From Lytechinus variegatus (Eukaryota; Echinodermata; Echinoidea; Temnopleuroida; Toxopneustidae), in NCBI RefSeq assembly GCF_018143015.1, contig NC_054741.1:58712197-58776196 (forward strand): a DNA stretch of 64,000 nucleotides, in the 5' to 3' direction. This document shows positions 13,050-38,600 of the stretch, piece after piece. How positions within the stretch are numbered: position 1 is the stretch's first letter; every line of letters starts with the position of its first letter. The position numbers and the translations under genes were made by a program. The notes below the pieces were generated by a model. The model did not search any database. It worked only from the letters and a program-made list of their open reading frames with translations, and was not told the origin of the DNA.

Positions 13050-15334
13050 CTACATCCCTATTTTTTTCTCAAGTGCCAGTCGCCCCTGCAAACTTTGAAC
13101 TTTGTACAACACATCATTCAAGGAACGCGGACGAAGCATGGGTGAGTTCTGGGAACACGAATTCCCAATAGATATCAAGTCCTGAGAGCGAGCGGCTCTG
13201 CCGATGATCCCCAGCAGGACTCCTACAGAATAGATGTCACTGGCCAGGGACAAAGCTGCCCCGTCGTCGACGACCTCGGGTGCGAGATAAAAGTTTACAC
13301 TAAGCTTCTTATGGTTCTCCATAATTGATTCGTTGATGGTTATGCGTGGTGGAAAAGCGATGGTACTAACGAGACCCAGGTCTATGATAAATCCTTGCCA
13401 ATGGTTATTTCTAAACTCAAGAAGAACATTGTCAGCTTTGATATCGTTGTGAAGTAATCTGTTGGAGTGCATGAATGCTATGCCCTCCAGGACATCAACG
13501 GCAATACCTAATAAGCTGAGACAAGACAGAAAAGGACTTGGGCTACACTTCATTATGTTCAGCAAAGGGAAAACCTTCCCTGTCTTCTTGTCGCCGATGA
13601 ATTCCTGAACAATGCACATGTCACCATCGAGCATCAGGGTACCGTAGAACTTCGGGAAGTGCCGGCTTCTGGATAGGAATTCTGAGGCTACAGCTTCCTT
13701 TGTGAACTGACCAAGGTTTGACCGTCTCTGAGACTCAATCTTATCTGGAGAAAAGAATGGCGGGATGACAGGCCCCTTGATAACAACGGTCTCAGAGCTG
13801 GTGGTATGTCGGGCGAGCAGTACACGTCCAAACGCTCCACGTCCAATCTCTTTGAACTTAAAATCGTTGTCGATGACAGATGTGGCATGAAAGGTGATGA
13901 CATCGTTCATGTTCAGCTCTGTACATGGCAAAGATCCAATTGTGGCGATTACGGCTGCATCGGCTGTGTTTTTTATATTAGAGAACGGGCCTTGCTCATT
14001 CCTGAGATAGACTCTAAAGCTGAAACAATATCAGACCAACATTATCATGAATTAATTTTACAAAGAAATCTTATCTGGATTTTTATGTATATATTATTGA
14101 CTGTTTGATTTCAAGAGAAACTAATTTATTATCCATGTAAGGAATAGTAATAATTTATATAAGGATACATTTTAGAATTATCTCGTGGATCCAACTGAAT
14201 GACTTTAACTATTACCATAGATATAGGTAATATTTGCTGTGATGTCTTTAAATAAAATCATACTGACTAAAAACCAGATGAGACTCGCAGACAATGGGAC
14301 AGGATACTCGAATTGTCCTGACATTTATGGATTTAACCTCAGTTCACATTAATTATCATCACCAATATACCAGGATCGGTTTAAAGACCTGTGAGAAATG
14401 GCGCAAGTTTGTATTGCACATATACCATGTATACCTTTCTTTAAAAAAATGATTTCAATGAAAATTAAGAAGTTTAAGTTCGTTATTCGACAATGGTTTC
14501 CATCAAGATAGAAATCTGACTAGATGTATTTAACACCATTCATGTATGACCTATTCTTTAGAGTAATGACTTACATTTCGATGAGATCGCGAAGTGCCTG
14601 GTTCTGTTCTTTAAGGGTTTGGCAATCGTATTCAAGAGCATTCGGTAGATCTCGAGAAGAATCATATTCTTTTTGTGATATACCTTCTACATCCAGGTGA
14701 ATAGGTATCTCCCCGAGGTATTTTGGATGTTCAACTGTTCTGCATTGCTCTTCCTGCGTATAAAGGGGATCGTTGATTAGTTAAATGATTGATTAATATT
14801 TATTGCATTTATTCTTTTTCATTCCAAAATTCAACAAAAGTTACAATGTAAGGCAAAACACAAAAATATACTATACAGAAATGAAAAAAGGAACCCACTA
14901 GCAAAGCTTGCTAGTATGGGTTCCCTGCAATAAAAAGTTAATTAAAGCTTTGATCAATGAAATTCAAATCGTAAATTAAAAAGGTTTGTACAATTAAAAA
15001 TAATACTAGTGGTGTCAAGCTTTTTATGCCTACTCATTATGTGACAATTAACAACAAAAATATTATATCATACCCCTGCTGTATAAAACAAACACTGAGT
15101 TCAGGAGTGTGTGAAAAGACAATGCGAGAAGTTCGCCCCCCCCCCCAGACGTCGAACCATAATCTTATATGCGAGATCGCATCACATGGTACGATCATCA
15201 TGTCATTTTTTTTATACCTGTTGTGGGGCAACTTTGTTATTTTTTCTCCATGGAATCCAGCGCCGTTTGTTGAAAATCGGAAAACAGTTTGTTTCTGATT
15301 CTTTGACTGCACGACAGAGCTCCGCTTCCATGAT
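13050..15334 (-). CDS. Orphan Ser/Thr-type protein kinase with HND and DLG motifs
   Basis: Three coding exons join in phase: 15334-15218 (acceptor just before ATC-ATG, start ATG at 15331), 14753-14575 and 14019-13050 (TAG stop). From that ATG the product is about 420 aa. Residues 80-97 (QTLKEQNQALRDLIE region) look like a short coiled coil. The kinase domain spans about 150-415: glycine loop GRGAFGRV (G157), VVIK lysine 179, catalytic loop HNDIKADN (Asp290, Asn295), DLG for DFG (Asp311) and YLAPE near 346. All catalytic residues are kept, so activity is plausible, but HRD is HND (non-RD class) and the activation loop lacks usual phosphosites. Such HND kinases occur as orphan families in invertebrates; I assign no pathway. 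A splice acceptor directly before the ATG implies at least one more upstream exon, possibly coding. The gene is divergent to GSTT, 3.0 kb away. Confidence 0.85.
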
Positions 15335-18366: not shown

Positions 18367-21300
18367 ATGTCTGTGAAGATATTCTACGACATCATGTCGC
18401 AACCTGCGAGGTCGGTTTTGATGTTTGTGAGAACAAACAAGATCCCTTACACTCCGTGTCCGATAGCCATGCGAAAATGTAAGTCGAAACACCCATTTCT
18501 TATTTTTCTCTGCCAGAGTTATGGGGCGTGTGTCGATGGTTTCCGCTCGAGCAGTGTCGCACACTGGTCGCACGTTAACCCAGGGAGCTCAGGGGTGGTA
18601 TTCTGAGATCCATTTTATCTCAGATAAAATAAAATATTTTATCTCCGTTAAAATCAGTGAGATAAAATACCCTTAAAATCTCTCCGAATTGGTATTCTGA
18701 GAACCATTTTATCTTCATTTTATCTTTGTAAGACACACCTATTTTTCAATCAATATCCAATTAGAAACGCGCTTTTATAGCTCTCTCATATCACTCAACC
18801 AATTAAAATCCATTCCGCCAGTAGGTGTGGCAAAGGGGTGAGATTGCGTCAATTTATTGACTTCAAATACGCTTGCATTATACGCTTACGTGTCTTTACG
18901 GAGATTTCGTTTTAACAAAAAGGACAATACTCTCATCTTTTTTCGAAGTCTTTATCGCATCTTTTCAAGCATCATTTCAAAGACAATATTAGTCAAGAAA
19001 AGTCTTATGAAATACTCCCTGATTGTACAGGAACAACGTTAAGGTGTTATTCTCAATAAATATATAATTTTTCTTCATTTTCATGTCATTATTTGGGGTT
19101 AATTCACCTAGAAATATTGGTGAAATCAACGTCGCAGAGATAAAATAGCCTCTACCCTCTTTTAAGTTTATTTTATTTTTTCTTCAAAGTGACATGGGCG
19201 CAAGCACATCATCTGCGTTGCAATGGCCAGATACGCGATGGGTATGTGTACGCAGGCATTGTTTTGTTGCGTATCATCTGTAGATACGCAAGATAAAATT
19301 TATATGCAAGATAAAGTGGTCGCATGTCATAAGGTGGTCCAATTTCGCGAACAGGGTAAAAATGGTCAAAAATTTTATTTTTTGATATGTTATAGCTATT
19401 ACCATTCTCTAAATAATGAAAAAGTTTTAAGTCTCGAATACCTTTATTTTTCCTTAAAATGACTAATTAACAGCTAATTATTACATAGACGTCAATGTAA
19501 ATGTGAATTTTGAAATGTGTTTTTCTCAAATTGGACCTGCTGCACATAAAATGGTGTCAAAAGTTAATGCAACGTTGGATCACCCTAGTATTTTGCAGTT
19601 ATAATCTTTAAACATCAATAATTAAATCTGTACCAAAAATCAAATAAATATCTATTATTGTATGCATATTAATTATACTAATTAATTAACAGTATTTAAT
19701 TTCACATTTTTGCCCCCAAAATACCTGTCACTGTATTTATATGCTTGGCAAAATGACAATATCATGGGTAGAAATGTTTGTTGCAATGATACACAACATT
19801 TGTACTAAAAATTAAGATTACAAATTAGATAATTAACCAAATCTCTCCGGTTTACTAATTCATTAGGTTGCAGATCAGAGCTGACATACACATGTATTCC
19901 ATTGCTGCATATTTTCAAAATTGTCAAATTTTTATGACATTTAGTTGTTCCCTGCTTTAAAACACCCAGAAATATGAGGATAACAGTCATATTACATATT
20001 GTAGTAAGTTGTTAATTAGGTTTAATTAACATTTTATCATTTACCACATCCACCGGCTCCGCATCCACCGGCTCCGCCACCCCTGTTACTTCAAACTTAA
20101 TGTGCTATAGTTTTTGTTCCTGATATTGTATTGATTTAATTCATAGTAATATATTTAGCCTATAGTTCTAGCTTCAAAATGAGATATTACTCAATAAATT
20201 TGGTCAAGATACTGTGATGTAGCAACAATTTATCCATGGCACCGTGTGGAAAATTGTTCATACGTCACCCTTTTTGCATACCCAACTTATGAAATGCGAC
20301 CAAATCTAAAATTTTATCTGAGAGATATTCTCATCTCAGAATACCTATTTCATTTTAAGAGATAAAATAAAATATTTTAAAGATAAAATGACCTCAGAAT
20401 ACCACCCCAGCTTTTTAAGACTGTATTCAAGTGTTCCACTCATTCCATCCCTCACCTGACTCCTTAGTTTCTGTCCCCATTATTACATAATCACCCAGAC
20501 ATCTTCATCTCATTATCCCTAATCGGTTATTTTTATGAATTGGGTCTATGTACTGTAGTCTGTACTCCTACACTTAAGCTGGCTCCTCTATTCTGATTCA
20601 TTGATTTTACGTTATGTAATTTGAATAAATGATATATTATGAATTTATCATTTTAGCGGGGCAAAGCAGCTTTCTAGCTACCAAACTTTTTTTACTCGTT
20701 TTACTTCATTTCAGTTTATTTGTGTCTTCTCCCATTTTCACTTGTTCCCTTTGACTTTGGTTTGATGATTGATGATCTGAGTTTGCTGCTTTATTTAAGT
20801 TAGAACTTACCGGTATCATATTCTACTCCTGGCCCTGACTACAATACATATTTTTTAACACCTTACAAAGATGAAATAAGATTCAGTGTAGGCTATAATC
20901 AATTATTCAGTAAAATAATTTTAGAGGAATGATAAATCAAGCATATATGGGATACAGCTCTGTTACGCTGTGCGAGATGGCTAGCTGTCTGTGAAGGATT
21001 TTTTTTTTCGAAAAGTAAACATATTTTAAAATCTCCAAATTAATAGATTTCAGCTGCCCATAGGCTATATATGCAAACGCAGCAAACCAGTCTTTTTTTA
21101 TCTGCCACGATATAATGCACTGTTTCGTAGTAGTCTACAAATGTAGACCCACATCTGCAGTGTGTGTACCTTAGCTGATTCAACGAGTCTGCATAGCAGA
21201 CTAGGTCTACTGAGGCTGCAGAAATGGCTCGCTACGCTCCCCCTTTCAGGCTGGTTTGCTTCGCAAACCAGTAGCAGATCCCACCTCACGAGCCATTCAG

Positions 21301-24300
21301 AGTCTGCATAGCAGACTAGTTTCGTAGTGGGAATTAGACCGGGAATCACTTGCAACTGTGAGCAGATGCAGTGATGATTATAGATGTTCCGGCACATTTG
21401 TATGAAGTTAGCTCTATAAATATTTGACATTTGGTGATTTGGATTTCATATTGTCTAATATAGGCCTACCCTTTCAAAAATTTCAGTTGAACACCAATCC
21501 GAGGAGTATGCAGCTGTTAATCCAATGAAGAAAATTCCAGCAATGCAAGATGGAGATTTCAAACTCACCGAGAGGTATGTTATAGATAGATATGTTACAG
21601 ATTTTTTTTTTGGGGGGGGGGCTTGAATTTGAATATTGACATTCCGCAGCTACATGTATGTTTGTGTGCATCAAGATTTGTGCATATTTTCACATTATGC
21701 GCACTGACGTCACAATGGACGAACAGGTGATTAACTGATTTTCTCCAGTATCTGCATTCCAACTGCAAACATGATTTGTTATTTTATGAACCTTATTAGC
21801 CAAAAGTATTCTGTGGACCATTTTTTTTAAATACTACAATTTCAGAATACCTTAATTACTCTGCACTGCTGCAAAGTATGACAAATATGACTTCAAGTTT
21901 GAACAAATGGAATAGTGAATTGAAATTTGCCCTTACAATTATTACATATAAAGCTTTTAGCACAATTTTGGTGTTTTTTTAAAGTATGTTTTCTCTTTTA
22001 AAAGTGCTGATAGTTTGAAAACAAGCACATAGACCCCTATGTGTTAATATTAACACTTCTTAAGTAAACCTTCCACTACAACTTTGCAATTTTTTTTTGA
22101 AAATGACATTGGTTTTGAATAAATTACAGTATTTATTGTACTTCTCAAATTCATTAAAGAATTTTTTTTTTAGATTATGCTTTGGTCCTCTTTCACACCA
22201 CTTTTAGGAATTGACGGTGATGCTCAAGATACAAGATTGAAGAAATATAAATGGATTCCCTGTATTTGAAGTATACAGTTGTGAAATTTGATGAAATTTT
22301 GATGGATTCTGACTGAGTAATAGACGTTTAAACTCAACAAAGTGATCTCATGAGATCTAGAAATGCAAAATTCTTTTGAATGCACATTTCTTAAGAACTT
22401 CCAATTGGGTGAACTTTGAAACTCGATAGCAGAAAATCAAGCACATGAACCCATGTTAAGTTTTGTATTTGGAATAATCAGATGCTTAAGTAACTATTGG
22501 AAAAATTTTGTGAAAATGACATGGATTTCACTTTAACTGTGGAATGTCCTTACACTCTTTCATGGGCTGTTTGTCCAAACCAAATGTCAAAAGTTCCTAG
22601 ATGTCCCATAGAAGAGCTTGTTAAATCAGTAGGTATACATGATCCAGTTGTAATGCATCTTAATTCTAAAACATGTTTCTTTTCTTTTTTATCACCAGCA
22701 GCTTGCCATAAGAAATCTGAAAATGAATGAAGTACCTTTCCCTATGACATCCGTGTTTATACCCCTTCAAATTTGTTTTTGCAGAAGAGGGATTGTTATA
22801 TCAGATATATGCCTACACTATCCCATTCTTACAATTTTATGAGTGAAAAGATTTTGTTAAATTGCTGCGATTGTGAACCCTCTTTTATTCTCTGATTCAT
22901 GCAGTATCGCAATAGTGAAGTATCTGCAGAGCAAGTATGCATGCCCTGATCATTGGTACCCTGCAGACCTAAAGGCCAGGGCCAGGGTCGATGAGTACCT
23001 GGCATGGCAGCACATGAACACAAGATTAAATGTTGCAAAGGTCTTTTTGAAACAGGTTAGTTTGTCCAATATTACACAAAAGTAGAACTTTCAGAAAGCA
23101 CAGGGACAGTAGGCGTTTCTTGCTCTAATGGCCATTGCTTTGTGTCCAAATTCCAAACGTCTTTTGGTTTAATGAAACGGATCACAATGCTGAGGGTACG
23201 TGATTCCAATATTTTTCTATTGCATTTTCTCTTGTCATGATGTTTATCCATGTCAGTGGAATACTTTCACCTAGCTCTTTCTTTATGTAGACTGTATATT
23301 ATCTTACTCTTAACTTCATCAATAGCCAATTGTTATTAACTGCAACTTTGTCAAATAGATGTACTTCAGTATACAAGGTTATATAGGCTAAGGGAAATTT
23401 TGTAATTTGATATGGACAACTATTGTGATAATAGAACATACAATATGAGAAAAATAACCTCTTGGAATGACCCACATATAATATTCATCTCAAAAGTTAG
23501 GTTCATTACAAATTACCATATATCCAATTTTATATAGATCTGCTTACTGCACTTCATTAGTATTTTAAACAGTAATAATTTCTCTCATAATCAAGACATC
23601 AAAAAGAAGTGTGATAGCATCTGATATGTACTGTACTTAATGGTAACCTCCAACCTGAAGTGACAAAGACTCATATTATATACTATTCATGCAATCTATA
23701 CACAGCATCACATTATATTCACAACATGTGTATCTGTTACAGACATGTATAAAATACATTGTACCTCATGAATGGCCATACCTGGGGGCCGTTTTATAAA
23801 GCTGTTCCTAAGTAAAGAGCGATTTTAAGAACGACTGGTGATCCTTTCTTACGCGCTTAACCATCGCCAATGAATATATCATTTACCACAAAAAAGGATC
23901 ACCAGTCGTTCTTAAAGTTGCTCTTAACTTACCAACAGCTTTATGAAACACCCACCTGCTTTACTCCATTTGTATACTGCATATATCAGAGGTCAAAAGA
24001 GAAGTTCCATGCTGCTCATAATGCGTACGTGCTCTTGTATTACAAAACCCATGTTTTTATGAAGGTTTCAAGAAAAACTTGTTCAGTTTCTATGGTAACC
24101 CAAATCCTGAAATTGTGTGATAATTCAGAAGAAATCTTCTACCAAGGATGTTGTATAACAAGTGTTTTGTCCATCCAGTGTGGCACCGGAACATTCTTTA
24201 TCAGAAAAACATAAGGGTGGAATCAATGTTGACTCGCAATGGTTTGGCCTTCCTATAAAGCTTTGTCTGATCACATCCCAATTCCACGCCAATAATACTA

Positions 24301-26015
24301 TGAAATGAAATTGAACAGATGAAATGCAAACTGATTATAATACTCCTTGTATTATTGTCTTCTTTAAATTCTTGACCTCTCAAGTATAAGCATCACAAAG
24401 TATCTCCATGAAAAGTTTGACTGTGCGGATCACTGGTATCCCAAGAGCCTCCAGCCCAGGTCAAGGGTCAATGAATATTTGGATTGGCAGCATTTCAATA
24501 CGAGACCACGTATGACCAAAGTATTTCTCGCAGAAGTGAGTCACATTCCAAATTGTGTGCTGCATCTTGTATTTTCATATTATTCAAAGAGCAAACGCAT
24601 TGATTATTCAAATTTTTTGAATACCAATTAATTAAATGGTAAACCATGACAAAATATGCCATTCATTATCAGATCATATACATGTAAACCATGGAATTAT
24701 TACTCCTTTCAATTTAGTAAACCATGCTGCAGTTAATCATAAATTTGAAGTGTGCGTGGATGTACCAAAGATATTTTTCAAATTTCAAAACTTGGCTTAT
24801 CTCACCCGTCTGTTATCTCCCTTATCTCTGTTTTCCACTATCTATTTCTCTCTTTTCTAGTTTTGTTAAAAATTAATAATGTATTTTCCATTTTTCTCTT
24901 TCTGTTCTTCTCTCCTTTTCTCACCCCTTCTCTCTCTCTATCTCACTCTCCCTATCTGACACTGTCCTGCATCCTCATTTTATCTCCTACCGTGCTTTTA
25001 ATATCGGTACTTTAGATGGAAATTAATTATCCTCATATCCGTTTTTCCTAAATTATACATTTATGTAAACTAGGTAATCTTTCCTCGGATGACTGGCACC
25101 CCTCCAGACCCTGCCGCCCTAGCCCCTGATATTCAGCGGATGGAAGAGACCCTAGACAACATAGAAACCTACTTCCTTCGGGACAAACCATTCCTGTGTG
25201 GGGATGACATCAGCATCGCAGACCTGTTTGGAGTAAATGAGGTAACATGATTGTTTTTAGAATACAATTGCTTATTAAATCATGAAGCCAAATTCTTAAA
25301 GTGTTTTTTTTTCAATCAATGGAGGGGGTTAACTATTTTTGCAAATTTTCACATTAATTTGAAAAAAGGGCTTTTTGAAAACTAATTCGAAGAGAGTATT
25401 TGAGGTGATATTCTGTTAGTAATCAGTGCATAGTATTTGGTGGTTTATTTTGTATTCAGTGGACTTACTGCAACATAGATGTGGATGAAGGGGGGGGGGG
25501 CAGTGGCGGACCGTGACCCGGAGGAGACAAAGCATTGGAGGGGCACAGCATTGTTCACTTACAATACATTGCCCCTCCAGTGCTTTGTCTCCTCGGATCA
25601 TGGTCCGACGGTCCGCCACTGAAGGGGAGTAGAGATGAATGTAACAAGTGTTGAAGGTGAATTTGCCCCCCCCCCCCCGGTCAACTTGGACAAAACCGGA
25701 TATAAACCTGTGGACTACTGACTTAAACAGACATCCACTAAAACATTTTTTTCCACATCACCTACATCCTAACATTTTTAAGACATATCTGGAACAGTAG
25801 CATCCACTTTTAAAAGATTTACCAAAAATTAAAGTCTTTAATGCTCAACTTGTTTACAGGTTATACAAATTGAACCCTGTGGATACGGTACGTTAGACAG
25901 GAGACCAAAACTGAAGGCTTGGATTGGAAGAGTCCGAGAGCGAGTACAACCAGAGATCTTTGACGATGTCTGCCAACTCATCTACAAACTAGCCAAAACA
26001 AAACCAAAGCTATAA
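18367..26015 (+). CDS. GSTT1-like: Glutathione S-transferase theta class, with duplicated exon 3
   Basis: Five exons make one frame: 18367-18478, 21487-21574, 22905-23055 (3a) or 24385-24535 (3b), 25074-25241 and 25860-26015 (TAA). The product is 224 aa. It aligns without gaps to human GSTT1 over the first 67 residues: catalytic Ser11 in MSQPARS, the NPMKKIPA block around Pro55 and the glutathione-binding pair Glu66-Ser67. The DHWYP and RVDEYLAWQH motifs start the all-helical C-terminal domain. Theta GSTs are cytosolic enzymes that conjugate glutathione to small electrophiles. The C-terminus stops about 15 residues before the vertebrate one. Exons 3a and 3b have equal length (151 nt) and phase, and each would complete the protein. 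Using both would shift the frame, so they should be mutually exclusive. ATTAAA at 26019 is a possible poly(A) signal. Confidence 0.93.
18592..20408. mobile_element. Terminal-inverted-repeat element in GSTT intron 1 (GGTATTCTGAG family)
   Basis: The left end GGGGTGGTATTCTGAGATCC and the right end, its inverse, enclose 1.8 kb. Each arm is A/T-rich with alternating ATTTTATCT and AGATAAAAT blocks. GGTATTCTGAG occurs twice per arm (about 18597 and 18692; 20331 and 20396, inverted). AGCT lies two bases outside the left end and directly outside the right end, a possible 4-bp target duplication. No transposase is visible. It sits 113 bp after the exon 1 donor. The element at 58665-60176 has the same architecture. 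Confidence 0.65.
21186..21320. repeat. Cluster of short perfect hairpins
   Basis: AGTCTGCATAGCAGACTAG occurs twice (21187 and 21301); each copy is a palindrome, AGTCTGC-ATA-GCAGACT. Between them is CTGGTTTGCTTCGCAAACCAG-type DNA, another near-perfect hairpin, and GGCTCGCTACGCTCC. Three strong stem-loops in 135 bp of GSTT intron 1 suggest a structured mobile or regulatory unit of unknown kind. Confidence 0.5.
22905..23055 (+). CDS. GSTT alternative exon 3a
   Basis: Acceptor ATGCAG and donor GTTAGT bound 151 nt. The exon completes Ser67 and encodes residues 68-117, starting IAIVKYLQSKY and ending AKVFLKQ. This is the linker to the helical domain and its first helices, including part of the hydrophobic-substrate site in theta GSTs. 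It is closer to vertebrate GSTT (KARARVDEYLAWQH) than exon 3b. Confidence 0.9.
23785..23954. mobile_element. Palindromic MITE, TTTATAAAGCTGTTC family, copy 1
   Basis: The left arm GGGGCCGTTTTATAAAGCTG and the right arm, ending CAGCTTTATGAAACACCCA, are inverted. Inside, AAGAACGACTGGTGATCC is matched by GGATCACCAGTCGTTCTT. The 170-bp unit lies between GSTT exons 3a and 3b. A second copy is at 46141-46316. Confidence 0.7.
24385..24535 (+). CDS. GSTT alternative exon 3b (tandem duplicate of 3a)
   Basis: Acceptor CTCAAG and donor GTGAGT bound 151 nt in the same phases as 3a. The encoded 50 residues start ISITKYLHEKF and end TKVFLAE. By my count 29 of 50 residues match 3a, with DHWYP, EYL, WQH, NTR and KVFL kept. 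There is no stop codon and the splice sites are intact, so it is most likely used. No second copy of exons 1, 2, 4 or 5 is visible, which argues against a separate gene. Confidence 0.85.
25501..25621. mobile_element. Short hAT-like MITE, near-perfect palindrome
   Basis: A 121-bp unit from CAGTGGCGGACCGTGACC to its inverse GGTCCGCCACTG. The arms both carry GGAGACAAAGCAYTGGAGGGGC and leave a core of only about 20 bp. CAGTGGCGGA is a hAT-type end. It lies in GSTT intron 4 after a 10-bp G tract. Confidence 0.65.
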
Positions 26016-33590: not shown

Positions 33591-33604
33591 GTCTTTAGAC
33601 TATA

Positions 33605-33950
33605 TTGATATTATGACCAACAGATCAGCGTTACAGCAACGCTCCAGAAACTCCAATGACAGTCCCTCTCTGATTGCAGAGCCTGTAGCAAAGTCACCAT
33701 GCTATTCAGAATCATGAATGACCTCGTAGCCATTCCTGTGGCTCCACCTTACTTCAACCCATCTTTTGGATCGACTAGAGGACATCATCTACAGTTTAGA
33801 CAGCAGCACTGCAGAACATCTTCCTCTTTAACACAGCTTCTTTCCAAGTGTGGTCTGCCTCTGGAATTCACTCCCATCAACAGCAGTGTCGGCCCCATCC
33901 ATCATGGTCTGTAAGAACCGCGCCTCTTCAGTCACTCTTCCTTAAGTGAC
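33605..33950 (+). pseudogene. LINE fragment, C-terminal end of a reverse-transcriptase ORF2
   Basis: Translation gives TMLFRIMNDLVAIPV, then PYFNPSFGSTRGHHLQFRQ. After a frame change near 33835 it continues FFPSVVCLWNSLPSTAV. The order MLYKIxNxLVxIP, then R-rich, then FFPxxxxLWNSLP is the typical tail of CR1/Jockey/I-type LINE polymerases. The piece is truncated at both sides and has changed frame, so it is dead. It lies 1.75 kb beyond the CHEK2 stop codon. Confidence 0.7.
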
Positions 33951-33959
33951 AGAAGATGA

Positions 33960-35699
33960 TTTTTACTAGCACCCTGGCTAAACAGCATATCTTATTTACT
34001 ATGTTGTACAGTACATCACTGTACTTCCTTTAGAAGTGTTCCTGCGAATACACCTTTTCACCACAAGTACGATAATACTCTACAAGAGGGATGTACTCTA
34101 ATGGAAGAAAGGAGCAGATGAATTACACAATCCAGTAGTCAACAGATTAACTGATTGCCTACTAGAAACTTCAAAACAGTGCGATGCAAAACAGCCTTTT
34201 TCTTGTTCTAGCAGTTTACTAAAAATCACAGAGACATGATTGACATTACAAGCACCCAGGAGTAGTACTAACAAATTGGTGCTTTGTAGTACACCTCAAT
34301 GAAAAGTGTGCAGAGTACCATGTGTGAAAGGATGGGGTAATCAAAGTTCTTCTTCATTACAGATAATATCTATATTGAAGCAACAATGAACTTTGGCATA
34401 ATAGTTCCATTCTGTAGTAATATACCCGATAATAACTACACTAATCAAGAATAGGGAGTGATATTACCTAAGAAGTATAAAAAGAGAAGTATAATACTTT
34501 TGGTTTGAAGTAAGAAGGAAATGTATTTAAATTATTTCAGAGGAAACAAACTCTGCTCCAGACAAGCTCTTATAGAATTCCCCATCAATGGAAAGTTGTT
34601 CTTCAGTAACACAAAGTAAAATACTGGGTTTAATTTGTGCAGAAGCCCCATTACTTTGGTAACTATCTTTTCATTACAGCTTGCCACTGAACATGATTTT
34701 TCTTTTTCAACTACCAAGAAATAGGTCCAAAGCAGTATATCAACAAGGAAAGTGGGTATTTTTCAAAGATATTTGTAAAATTACTCATGACTGTTATACT
34801 AATGGCTGCAATATGGCTCTCACTAAAGTTGAGCTAAGAGATTCTCCATACAATTCATAAAATGTATTTGAAAAAGCTTCATTCAAAATTACAGTAAATG
34901 ATCTTCTTCAAGCATAAAATGTTTGGTTACCTGTTGGAAAGTGAACCAACATCTATTTCAACTGAAGCTTGTGTGATCTAAAATGATGCGAAGTGAACTT
35001 GGCTTGCCATATTCCAAAATTGATCATAGGATCATTCATATCTTTACATATGGTGTTATGAAAAAAGCCCAATGAAAATAAAGAAGCAGTATATTACACT
35101 GAAGTTAACAAATGTTTTTGATATGATATAATACTGAGAGGACAAAACAGGTTACATACAGAACCTTTTTCAGTAAAGGATTACTACAAATAAAATCAAT
35201 TTCAATGAAAGAAAAAGGGAATACCTCAAGAGTTCAACAAATAACTGGCCATAAAAAGTCTCCCACTTCTCTGTACTCAAGGCGAAAAGGCTGCTTGTTT
35301 TCATGCCAATTTATAAGACACATTAATGTCATGTCTGTTGGCCCCGATGCATGCGGATATCATGACTTTTTCTTTGCAACAATGGCTTCTCTACACAATA
35401 ATGGGACAATCAGAATGGAAAATATGCTGGTCAGTTTACCGCTAAAAAACATGGATCGAAATGACTCATACTTATGTTATGGAACATTGCGATGAAGAAA
35501 TTTGTGGTGATCATCACTATTACAACAGGTAACATGGGAGCTGTTCGACCAAAGGAGAGGATGCAGTCATCTAAAGCATACACTCTATCTTCTACACTTG
35601 CCACAATCTATGATGATGGCCAATACATGCACTGAATGAGTATCTGTCCATATGAGGAAGGCATGTCATGATTCTTATTACACATATCAAGCGGTGACG
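33960..35699. other. CHEK2 3' flank
   Basis: Directly downstream (minus strand) of the CHEK2 stop at 35700, so it should contain the 3' UTR. The base composition is even and free of clear repeats. Plus-strand open frames at 34.5-35.5 kb are short and not supported as genes. Confidence 0.4.
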
Positions 35700-38600
35700 T
35701 TATGCATCTCCACTTCCTTTCGTGACGACCTTTGACACGTCTTCTGTCTTGTCAAAGGCACTGTCCCCACTGTCATCACTCCTTGACATCTTCCTAGAGG
35801 TCGTACTACCGAACCCAGAGTCATCATTATGCTCATCGTCTGTGCTCATTGCTGACTCTCTTGGGCGCTTCTTGGTTCCAGGAACCTATACGGATTGAAT
35901 TTTTGAAAGTAAGAAGTTATAACTCTATTGGGGGTGTTGCAGGAAACTTTAAGTTCACTTACAGAATTAAGTAGTCAATGGACACCTACAACGTAATGGA
36001 ACTGGGTGGTCCCAAAATAAAGTTACAGGAATTACATAATTCATTTGTCATTGGATCAACAGAAGTGCAGTTCCGTCTACTCCAAATACTCCTCACAGTT
36101 TATTCTGGGACCCCTCTTTCCTAGTTTTGTGAGGCATTGGGTAACTTTATAAACATGGCAATGTATTTGGCTTTCTTTCCATACAAATTTTCAACCAAGG
36201 CAGGTTGTTTGTGACCTACCAAGTGCAATGTTCCCACATTGGTCTTCATGTACCTAAGATTTCTCTTCAAAAGGTATTAAAGACAAGTAGGTCACACTCC
36301 AAATACTCATCACAGTTTATTCTGGGACCCCTCTTTCCTAGTTTTGTGAGGCATTGGGTAACTTTATAAACATGGCAATGTATTTGGCTTTCTTTCCATA
36401 CAAATTTTCAACCAAGGCAGGTTGTTTGTGACCTACCAAGTGCAATGTTCCCACATTGGTCTTCATGTACCTAAGATTTCTCTTCAAAAGGTATTAAAGA
36501 CAAGTATTACTTATGTCCATCCACTTACCTCTGGGACATACATGGAATAATTTGTCTCTCTTTCTTAGTTCATATCGTGAAGGCTTGAGCACTTCATAGA
36601 ATCAAGTAAGAATTGTGGTAAAGATGACTATTTAATGGTGTTCTTCACATGTCAAATTGGAAAAAAAAATCAAAAGCTTACCGGAGCAGTAGGAGGAAGC
36701 ATCTGTCCGTTCCTGTTGGGGTACATGACCTTCTCGGCCTTGTCAATGACCTCTGGATCCTGAAGCCATGGGTGCGCCAAGGCCTGCTTGGTAGTCAGTC
36801 TCCGCTTTGGATCAACAGTCAAAAGTTTCTTGACCATATCGATTGCTGCATGGTAAGAAATGAGATTTATCCTTAATTATTCCATACCAAACATTCACAT
36901 CTTTGTTCCTGGCCCATGACTAATTTAAAGGATGCCGATCAAATTCAATTTGCAGATATTTCAATTTCAATTTACAGATATGTCAAGTTGCTCAGTATTT
37001 TCAAGGATAATCATATAACAGTAATAAAAGAGCAGATACATAAAAAAACCTCTCTCAGCTGCAATATAGCTTTATACTCCTTGATTGAAGCCTTCATTAA
37101 AGAACAAAATCAAGACAAAGGTATGCAATATCCTTTTTTAAGCAAAAATTGCAACATCATCAAGTACCCTAAGGACACTGTCGGTGGGTATTTCCACAAG
37201 GGTATTACCAACATTGTCATAGTTTGAGTGCCTGTTCTTTGCCTTGCCTCCCTTTTTATCATGTAATGTGGACAATGTCGAATGAGCTTGTTCTATCATA
37301 TGATTTTGTTCAATTCCACAAAACCGTTACATTTATGATATTGAGGTATTACCTATGGTAACAGAATAACCTGAGAATCAGGCCTTTTCTATTAAAAAAA
37401 ATGTCTTAAAAAAAAATCAAAGCATTATAAACAATAATGTCATGGTGAAATTTCTGTTTATATAAGCTTTGTTTAATCACAGAATTTGGGCATTCAGGAC
37501 TACAAATTTGATTATTTTATGGTAAATATGAGGCAAGGTGCAATTTCAATCCTAGCCAAGCTGAGAACTCAAAACCATACCTGACTCTGATACTGATCCC
37601 CAGTACTTTGTTGGGAAGCTGTAGTAACCTCTCTTAATCTGCTGCTCCAAGGTCATCACCTTGATTTCATCCGAGAACGGAGGGTACCCTGCAAGGCAGA
37701 TGTAGAGGATGACCCCTATACTCCAGCAATCGACGGCTTTTGTGTAGCCACCCATACCCATACTGGTCAGGATCTCTGGGGCGAGGTAGGTAGGTGTGCC
37801 ACATAGGGTCTTCATCAGGGATTGCTCTCCGACAAACTTGGAGAGACCAAAGTCGGTGACTTTAAGGACGGTTTCCTTGTCGTCGGTCATGAGGAGCAGG
37901 TTTTCTGGCTGTGATTAAGGAAGACATTTAGATATAATCAGTGATAAAAAAAATTGGTTTCATTGATTGTTCACTGACAAACTAACAGAGACCAAGGTCA
38001 GAGACCTTCAGTTCAGTTTCCTTGTCGTTGTCATGAGCAAGAGGTTCTCGGGATGGGGTTTACATGTAGGATGATATTACAATCAGCGTTACTGATTTTA
38101 AAGGAAGTTTCCATCACAGATTGTTCACAATAAACAAACCAGAATAGGCAAAAGTCTTCATAATTTCAGGGAGGAGTTTCATCATCATTTGGTGTCAGTT
38201 ATTCACAGGCCTATACAGGGGAGCGTTCATGAAAGGATTTGTCAGACGTTTCATCCGACAAGTCCTGTTTTATCCGACAGTTGCCATGGTAATAGTGCCT
38301 ATCGACCAATCAGAATCAAGGAAAGATTTCAGATCTGACAACTTGTCGGCCCAAAATGTTGAGGTAACACTCCCCTGATTTTCACCACAACCTAGGCTAA
38401 TGCCACAACACCACATCTGTATGCACTACCATCCACTCGTTCCGCCATTACCAGTGACCCACATACACAGAGCGCCACCACCAACAGCCTACCAGCCTGC
38501 CAGCCAGCTTCTCTACATCACGGCATATACACGCCATAAGTACCGCAGCACGATTAGCAAACACTCACTCCTTATTAAAGACAGACAGTCAACCTGTCTT

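Follow-up and report, generated by a model that had tools for sequence, protein, structure and literature searches.

Does a gene that carries two homologous versions of a single exon make two proteins, or one? The question is raised by a window of 64,000 nucleotides from the sea urchin Lytechinus variegatus (the whole stretch analysed, C2:58712197-58776196), in which a complete coding region for a theta-class glutathione transferase (GST) extends from position 18367 to 26015 on the + strand and contains exon 3 in two versions, here called 3a and 3b. We consider it probable, judging from the sequence, that exon 3 has been duplicated in tandem and that 3a and 3b are spliced alternatively, one per mRNA, so that two theta GSTs of 224 amino acids would be made. 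Both exons would then be used in mRNA, and the two enzymes would be identical as far as Glu66 and again from residue 118 to the C-terminus; the segment between, with helix 3, the linker and helix 4, would distinguish them. Use of one exon at a time is supported by the fact that both homologous exons are intact, have the same phase and have matching splice sites, and that the reading frame tolerates no more than one of them.

The coding part of exon 1 (18367-18478, 112 nt) begins with the ATG start and holds Ser11, and exon 2 (21487-21574, 88 nt) holds His40, Lys53 and Glu66. Exon 4 (25074-25241) has 168 nt, and the coding part of exon 5, including the stop codon, has 156 nt (25860-26015). Exon 3a (22905-23055), which encodes the remainder of Ser67, helix 3, the linker and helix 4, and its alternative version 3b (24385-24535) are both 151 nt long and lie between exon 2, ending at 21574, and exon 4, starting at 25074, as an earlier note on this DNA had placed these junctions; all exons are on the + strand. 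When the exon peptides are compared with both strands of the window by tblastn, exons 1, 2, 4 and 5 are found in one copy each and exon 3 in two, and further matches on either strand have E values of 0.14 or worse. Within the window, the claim that every other exon is present once is therefore correct.

Exons 3a and 3b agree in protein at 29 of 50 whole codons (58%) and in DNA at 91 of 150 bases. Their 59 base differences are distributed over first, second and third codon positions as 19, 11 and 29, with the fewest at the second, and since tblastn of 3a against 3b gives an E value of 1.7e-19, the likeness is not due to chance. Each exon starts within the Ser67 codon, after two bases, and ends at a codon boundary, and the donor and pyrimidine tract of 3b score comparably to those of 3a on a scoring matrix for splice sites. 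Two 151-nt exons with intact splice sites, equal phase and about 58% amino acid identity, as described in the earlier note, are thus what the locus contains.

The consequences for the reading frame are as follows. An mRNA with 3a alone, or with 3b alone, encodes an intact protein of 224 amino acids. When 3a and 3b are joined, the frame is broken, as had been claimed, and meets a stop at codon 126; when neither is included, there is a stop at codon 68. Adding up exon lengths places either stop more than 50 nt upstream of the last junction, and nonsense-mediated decay is therefore expected for mRNAs with both exons or with neither, which would be removed in this way. The intron between the two exons is 1329 nt long, which argues against steric exclusion of 3a and 3b by their spacing. 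The donors, GTTAGT and GTGAGT, are unlike the U12 type (by the U12 consensus), and the locus does not show the incompatibility between U2 and U12 sites that keeps some exon pairs apart. Steric or U2/U12 incompatibility is one route among several to exclusive splicing, and not a requirement for it.

Exons 2, 3a, 3b and 4 recur, with identical protein, about 2.7 Mb away on the same contig (C2:56.024-56.028 Mb). This second copy belongs to a colinear duplication of more than 1 Mb (C2:56.02-57.22 versus C2:58.73-59.92 Mb) that takes in both this gene and a theta GST cluster: the other theta genes at C2:57.17-57.22 Mb are repeated in the same order at C2:59.89-59.92 Mb. A later part of the window is also duplicated, with a match of 96% over window positions 33600-36289 and of 100% over the following 1 kb, the duplication being noted across 33600-37300. 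The duplication is probably, and most simply, an unmerged second haplotype, with a real segmental duplication as the alternative. An assembly that is imperfect here gives some ground for suspecting that the two exon versions are themselves an assembly artefact, but 59 of 150 bases distinguish 3a from 3b, and each copy of the locus has both exons in order and comparably spaced, which makes this the least probable of the explanations considered.

When all coding exons of both forms are compared between the two copies, there are seven differing sites, six of them silent and one a Leu/Ile difference in exon 5; exon 1 has none, exon 2 and exon 3a have two silent differences each, and 3b has none. 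In introns 2 to 5, 126 of 3769 aligned sites differ (3.3%). Exon 3b and its splice sites are intact in the second copy, and every internal exon border, those of 3a and 3b included, has AG and GT in both copies.

When the genome (869.6 Mb in 33 contigs) is searched with 3a, at least 19 places are found, a lower bound because the search scores its best candidates only. They comprise four of this gene (3a and 3b, in two copies each), 13 exon-3 places of other theta genes with haplotypes counted, and two weak ones with a stop. With haplotypes counted once, the exon-3 matches amount to about ten theta GST genes in this genome, with clusters at C2:57.2 and C2:69.3 Mb, and the family looks expanded; in Strongylocentrotus purpuratus, four GSTT models have been taken as one gene (PMC3812683). 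In one of these theta genes, present in copies at C2:57.218 and C2:59.921 Mb, the exon 3 donor is GT in one copy and GC in the other.

For comparison with 3a and 3b, nine other theta genes of the same genome are used, one haplotype each and with one exon 3 listed per gene. By the splice sites chosen, of which the donor of the gene at C2:48.30 is doubtful, their exon 3 is 157 nt long, versus 151 nt in 3a and 3b. In a protein tree of 3a, 3b, these nine sequences and human GSTT1 and GSTT2, with the two extra residues of the paralogues left out, 3a and 3b are sisters (Shimodaira-Hasegawa-like approximate likelihood ratio test 88.3, ultrafast bootstrap 92), with a branch length of 0.76 for 3b versus 0.07 for 3a. 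Unique changes number eight in 3b versus one in 3a when human GSTT1 is the outgroup (p = 0.039), seven versus one with GSTT2 (p = 0.07), and eight versus two with a paralogue (p = 0.11). Because 3a and 3b are sisters, and because the longer branch is that of 3b, the sequences indicate that 3b arose by tandem duplication of this gene's own exon 3 and is the more changed copy of the pair. Silent sites are saturated, so that no pairwise silent distance can be estimated for 3a versus 3b, and the duplication is therefore old.

The same tree bears on the idea that 3b is part of a separate transcript, whose own first exons would lie downstream of 3a in the intervening intron, or is what remains of another GST gene, as might be imagined from the tandem theta gene clusters elsewhere on the contig. 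Such a history is very improbable, since 3b groups with 3a and not with any of the nine other theta genes, and since neither strand of the window, the stretch that separates 3a from 3b included, has a convincing sequence like exon 1, 2, 4 or 5 apart from the gene's own.

Does 3b show constraint? When 3a is allowed to drift neutrally to 59 differences in simulation, a mean of 16.2 of 50 residues is kept, versus 29 observed; none of 4000 runs reaches 29, and 320 of 4000 remain free of stops. In a purpose-written branch codon model with 3b as the tested branch, a ratio omega of replacement to silent rates equal to 1 on that branch is disfavoured with p = 0.015 for 11 sequences, and with p = 0.034 and 0.052 for eight sequences and two trees, and no difference in omega is seen between the 3b branch and the background (p = 0.40). 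When 3a is tested instead, the codon models are without power (p = 0.21 and 0.34). Exon 3b looks constrained, and the note's suggestion that it is under selection is upheld by the simulation and, modestly, by the codon model.

Other observations weigh against alternative use of 3a and 3b. The p-values of the codon model are modest and one exceeds 0.05; in addition, saturation affects the silent sites, and the length of the 3b branch is at its bound. Exon 3b has changed four (69, 81, 88 and 93) of the 19 positions that are common to 3a, human GSTT1, human GSTT2 and two paralogues, and it has prolines at 91 and 108 that 3a lacks at those sites. The absence of differences between the two copies of 3b (0 of 151) was dropped as proof of constraint, because 721 of 3904 overlapping non-coding ungapped windows of 151 nt also show zero. 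Among human clusters of homologous exons, many neighbouring similar exons are not mutually exclusive in splicing, and in one subset 18 of 20 frame-incompatible clusters still have reads that join both exons (PMC5740500), from which follows that the frame alone does not enforce exon choice. Frame incompatibility may act as a filter on mRNA products, and need not steer splicing.

Exon 3b could, in that case, be a duplicate that was used formerly or never, that looks intact, and that is now skipped or spliced as noise, so that the gene makes the 3a protein only. The faster change of 3b and its loss of four common theta residues would be natural under this explanation, and the haplotype comparison is no proof of present constraint. 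It has to account, however, for an open frame, for both splice sites and for 58% protein identity in the face of saturated silent sites, as well as for neutral simulations that never match the observed identity and for an omega on the 3b branch that is like that of other branches. We regard it as unlikely, and continue with the reading in which 3a and 3b are both used, one per mRNA.

What would exchange of the two exons then change in the enzyme? By its sequence, the gene product is a theta-class GST. The best matches in PDB are chains of human GSTT1 and then GSTT2, with E values of 7e-57 for the 3a form and 2e-51 for the 3b form and with residues 1-218 of 224 aligned, and the alignment with human GSTT1 is free of gaps across exon 3 in both forms. 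The Pfam domains GST_N and GST_C are above cut-off in the 3a and 3b forms alike. When the published list of glutathione-site residues and 13 pocket residues of hGSTT1-1 (PMC4029803) is followed by position, both forms carry Ser11, His40, Lys53, Glu66, Ser67 and Arg107; position 54 is Ile, and position 104, in the glutathione site, is Met in 3a and Phe in 3b. The C-terminal helix that holds residue 234 in hGSTT1-1 is absent, since the protein ends at 224, which is not decisive against the theta class because a silkworm theta GST lacks it as well (PMC4029803).

The earlier note had proposed two enzymes with the same glutathione site but different substrate pockets, and this proposal is weakly founded. 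In its favour, Ser67 and Arg107 are kept in both forms, and pocket residue 111 is Ala in 3a and Thr in 3b. Against it, pocket residue 115 is Leu in both, these two are all that exon 3 contributes to the 13 pocket residues of hGSTT1-1 (PMC4029803), and the glutathione-site position 104 differs. Clustering of the 3a/3b differences on a pocket-facing side was also considered and dropped, because the differences have no favoured face along helix 4 (R = 0.10, p = 0.80, with assumed helix boundaries) and no significant one along helix 3 (R = 0.43, p = 0.16). Exon 3 encodes helices 3 and 4, whose part in dimer formation is stressed for delta and epsilon GSTs of flies (PMC11274453). With two of 13 pocket residues involved, no preferred side in helix 4 and this role of the two helices in flies, the exchange would most likely alter contacts between subunits and the margin of the active site (residues 104 and 108-111), rather than create a wholly new substrate pocket.

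How one of the two exons might be selected is a more tentative matter. Consider an intronic element that can hide the acceptor of 3a or that of 3b, never both at once, and thereby bias the choice. A candidate for such a docking element lies in the intron between 3a and 3b (23974-24001, + strand) and is complementary at 23 of 28 positions to the 3a acceptor. Its candidate selector A (22880-22907, +) comprises the pyrimidine tract, the AG and the first three nucleotides of 3a, and the helix has 24 pairs, including a G-T pair, with an energy of about -29 kcal/mol. When 1541 nt are folded, its predicted pair probability is near 1 over most of its length. The candidate selector B (24372-24392, +), with the pyrimidine tract, the G of the AG and the first bases of 3b, forms 17 pairs at -19.9 kcal/mol and contests the same docking bases. 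An initial pairing scan with tiles of 60 nt gave nothing significant, with 3 to 13 of 20 shuffles as low for four of six region pairs. The acceptor pairing is a post-hoc find from a search for inverted repeats, and is weighed accordingly.

A complementarity of 23 of 28 is reached by none of 500 intron shuffles (best 19) and, when six splice sites are included, by none of 40 (best 22), but by 22 of 4800 real-DNA 28-mers of the window, at least two of these 22 being inside an inverted repeat at 23784-23956. Of 5796 window tiles, 15 reach an energy as low as that of the docking element with the 3b acceptor. For exons 2, 4 and 5 the acceptors score at background level, and among 636 acceptor-like sites, a set to which the 3b acceptor itself does not belong, eight pair with the element as strongly as the 3b acceptor does, two of them being the element's own antisense and the 3a acceptor. 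Joint service of both acceptors as good as this is found for 1 of 60 and for 18 of 500 control acceptor pairs (517 pairs existed), some of these lying at G-runs. Acceptors of exon 3 from the nine paralogues pair with the docking element at just -6.0 to -15.3 kcal/mol. When the genome is searched with 86 bp around the element, the matches listed include only this site and its haplotype copy; the central 20-mer is exact at those two sites, and six more sites match it with two mismatches. Between the two haplotypes, the docking element and the 3a-acceptor element are identical, which is uninformative on covariation.

The inverted repeat at 23784-23956, in the same intron, has arms of 67 nt that are 85% complementary, with a spacer of 39 nt. 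It was dropped from consideration as a probable remnant of a mobile element, because a 20-mer of it recurs near another theta gene.

Could the 3b pairing simply be inherited from the acceptor of 3a? The two acceptors align poorly and pair with the docking element in different registers, so shared descent, although it may contribute, is not a full explanation. Of the two helices, that of 3a alone is present in the predicted ensemble, and the 3b pairing is not formed while that helix is available; this pairing would therefore come into play only once the 3a acceptor has been occupied. A switch between competing structures is, as modelled, a plausible candidate. That one intronic strand in fact pairs with either acceptor, so that 3b is used when the 3a acceptor is masked and 3a is used when the 3b acceptor is masked, we hold to be unlikely. 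During transcription the docking element follows the 3a acceptor by about 1.07 kb and precedes that of 3b by about 0.38 kb, so that in such a switch kinetics would decide whether 3a is recognised early or masked.

Control by docking sites and selector sequences is known for Dscam, 14-3-3zeta, Mhc and MRP1, and it has been argued that exon duplication can create such pairs (PMC6071210). The present case would be like these systems in that one candidate element could pair with a site at each of the tandem exons, that the two pairings overlap and that a single helix can form at a time. In the model for Dscam exon 6, however, pairing promotes the exon adjacent to the selector (PMC6071210), whereas the candidate element of the present gene is flanked by the two exons and would pair with their acceptors. 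When the selectors are the splice acceptors themselves, pairing should therefore repress, unlike in Dscam exon 6, and the arrangement would be a repressive counterpart of the Dscam-type docking system. The candidate element bears on whether competing RNA pairing, best known from insects, governs exon choice in this sea urchin, and an acceptor-masking switch, if true, would place docking-type control in a detoxification enzyme of an echinoderm, far from insects.

Homologous exon pairs such as this one, and alternatively spliced insect GST genes, are already known. In Anopheles, GSTD1 has alternative 3' exons. Alternatively spliced GSTs are also found in Drosophila (GSTD11, GSTZ2, GSTT3 and GSTO2; PMC4195677), and a sigma GST is alternatively spliced in two mosquitoes (PMC4654499). 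As in these insects, a single GST gene would here give several transcripts or proteins with shared exons. The Drosophila GSTT3 variants, in contrast, have different 5' exons, and the available text of PMC4195677 describes no internal homologous pair over helices 3-4. Mutually exclusive homologous exons in human are catalogued in PMC5740500, where 377 clusters (60%) are such that joint inclusion breaks the frame. The present exons are like those pairs in being neighbouring internal exons, homologous, equal in length and phase and of a length that is not divisible by three, and differ from them in that exclusivity here is deduced from the frame alone.

A theta-class GST of another sea urchin, Hemicentrotus pulcherrimus, has been described from the apical tuft of the embryo (PMC3812683). 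Because its printed primers imply a start and an end of the protein other than those found here, it is probably a paralogue of the present gene, and the available main text of that paper mentions neither splicing nor exons; no counterpart of it was recognised among the theta loci compared here. Among the titles of open papers listed for GSTs with mutually exclusive exons, for sea urchin theta GST, for exclusive exons in echinoderms and for splicing of theta GST exon 3, none reports the exon pair. If both exons are used, one detoxification gene would give a pair of enzymes, and perhaps dimers of one with the other, distinguished by a defined cassette of some 50 residues, and the locus would constitute a natural swap experiment on helices 3 and 4 in theta GSTs.

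Elsewhere in the window, on the - strand, there are two open frames that resemble protein kinases. One, at 13053-14030, encodes 326 amino acids and may be a single-exon gene or a retrocopy; the second, at 37555-37914, encodes 120 amino acids. Their E values for the Pfam domain Pkinase are 1.3e-21 and 2.3e-24, respectively.

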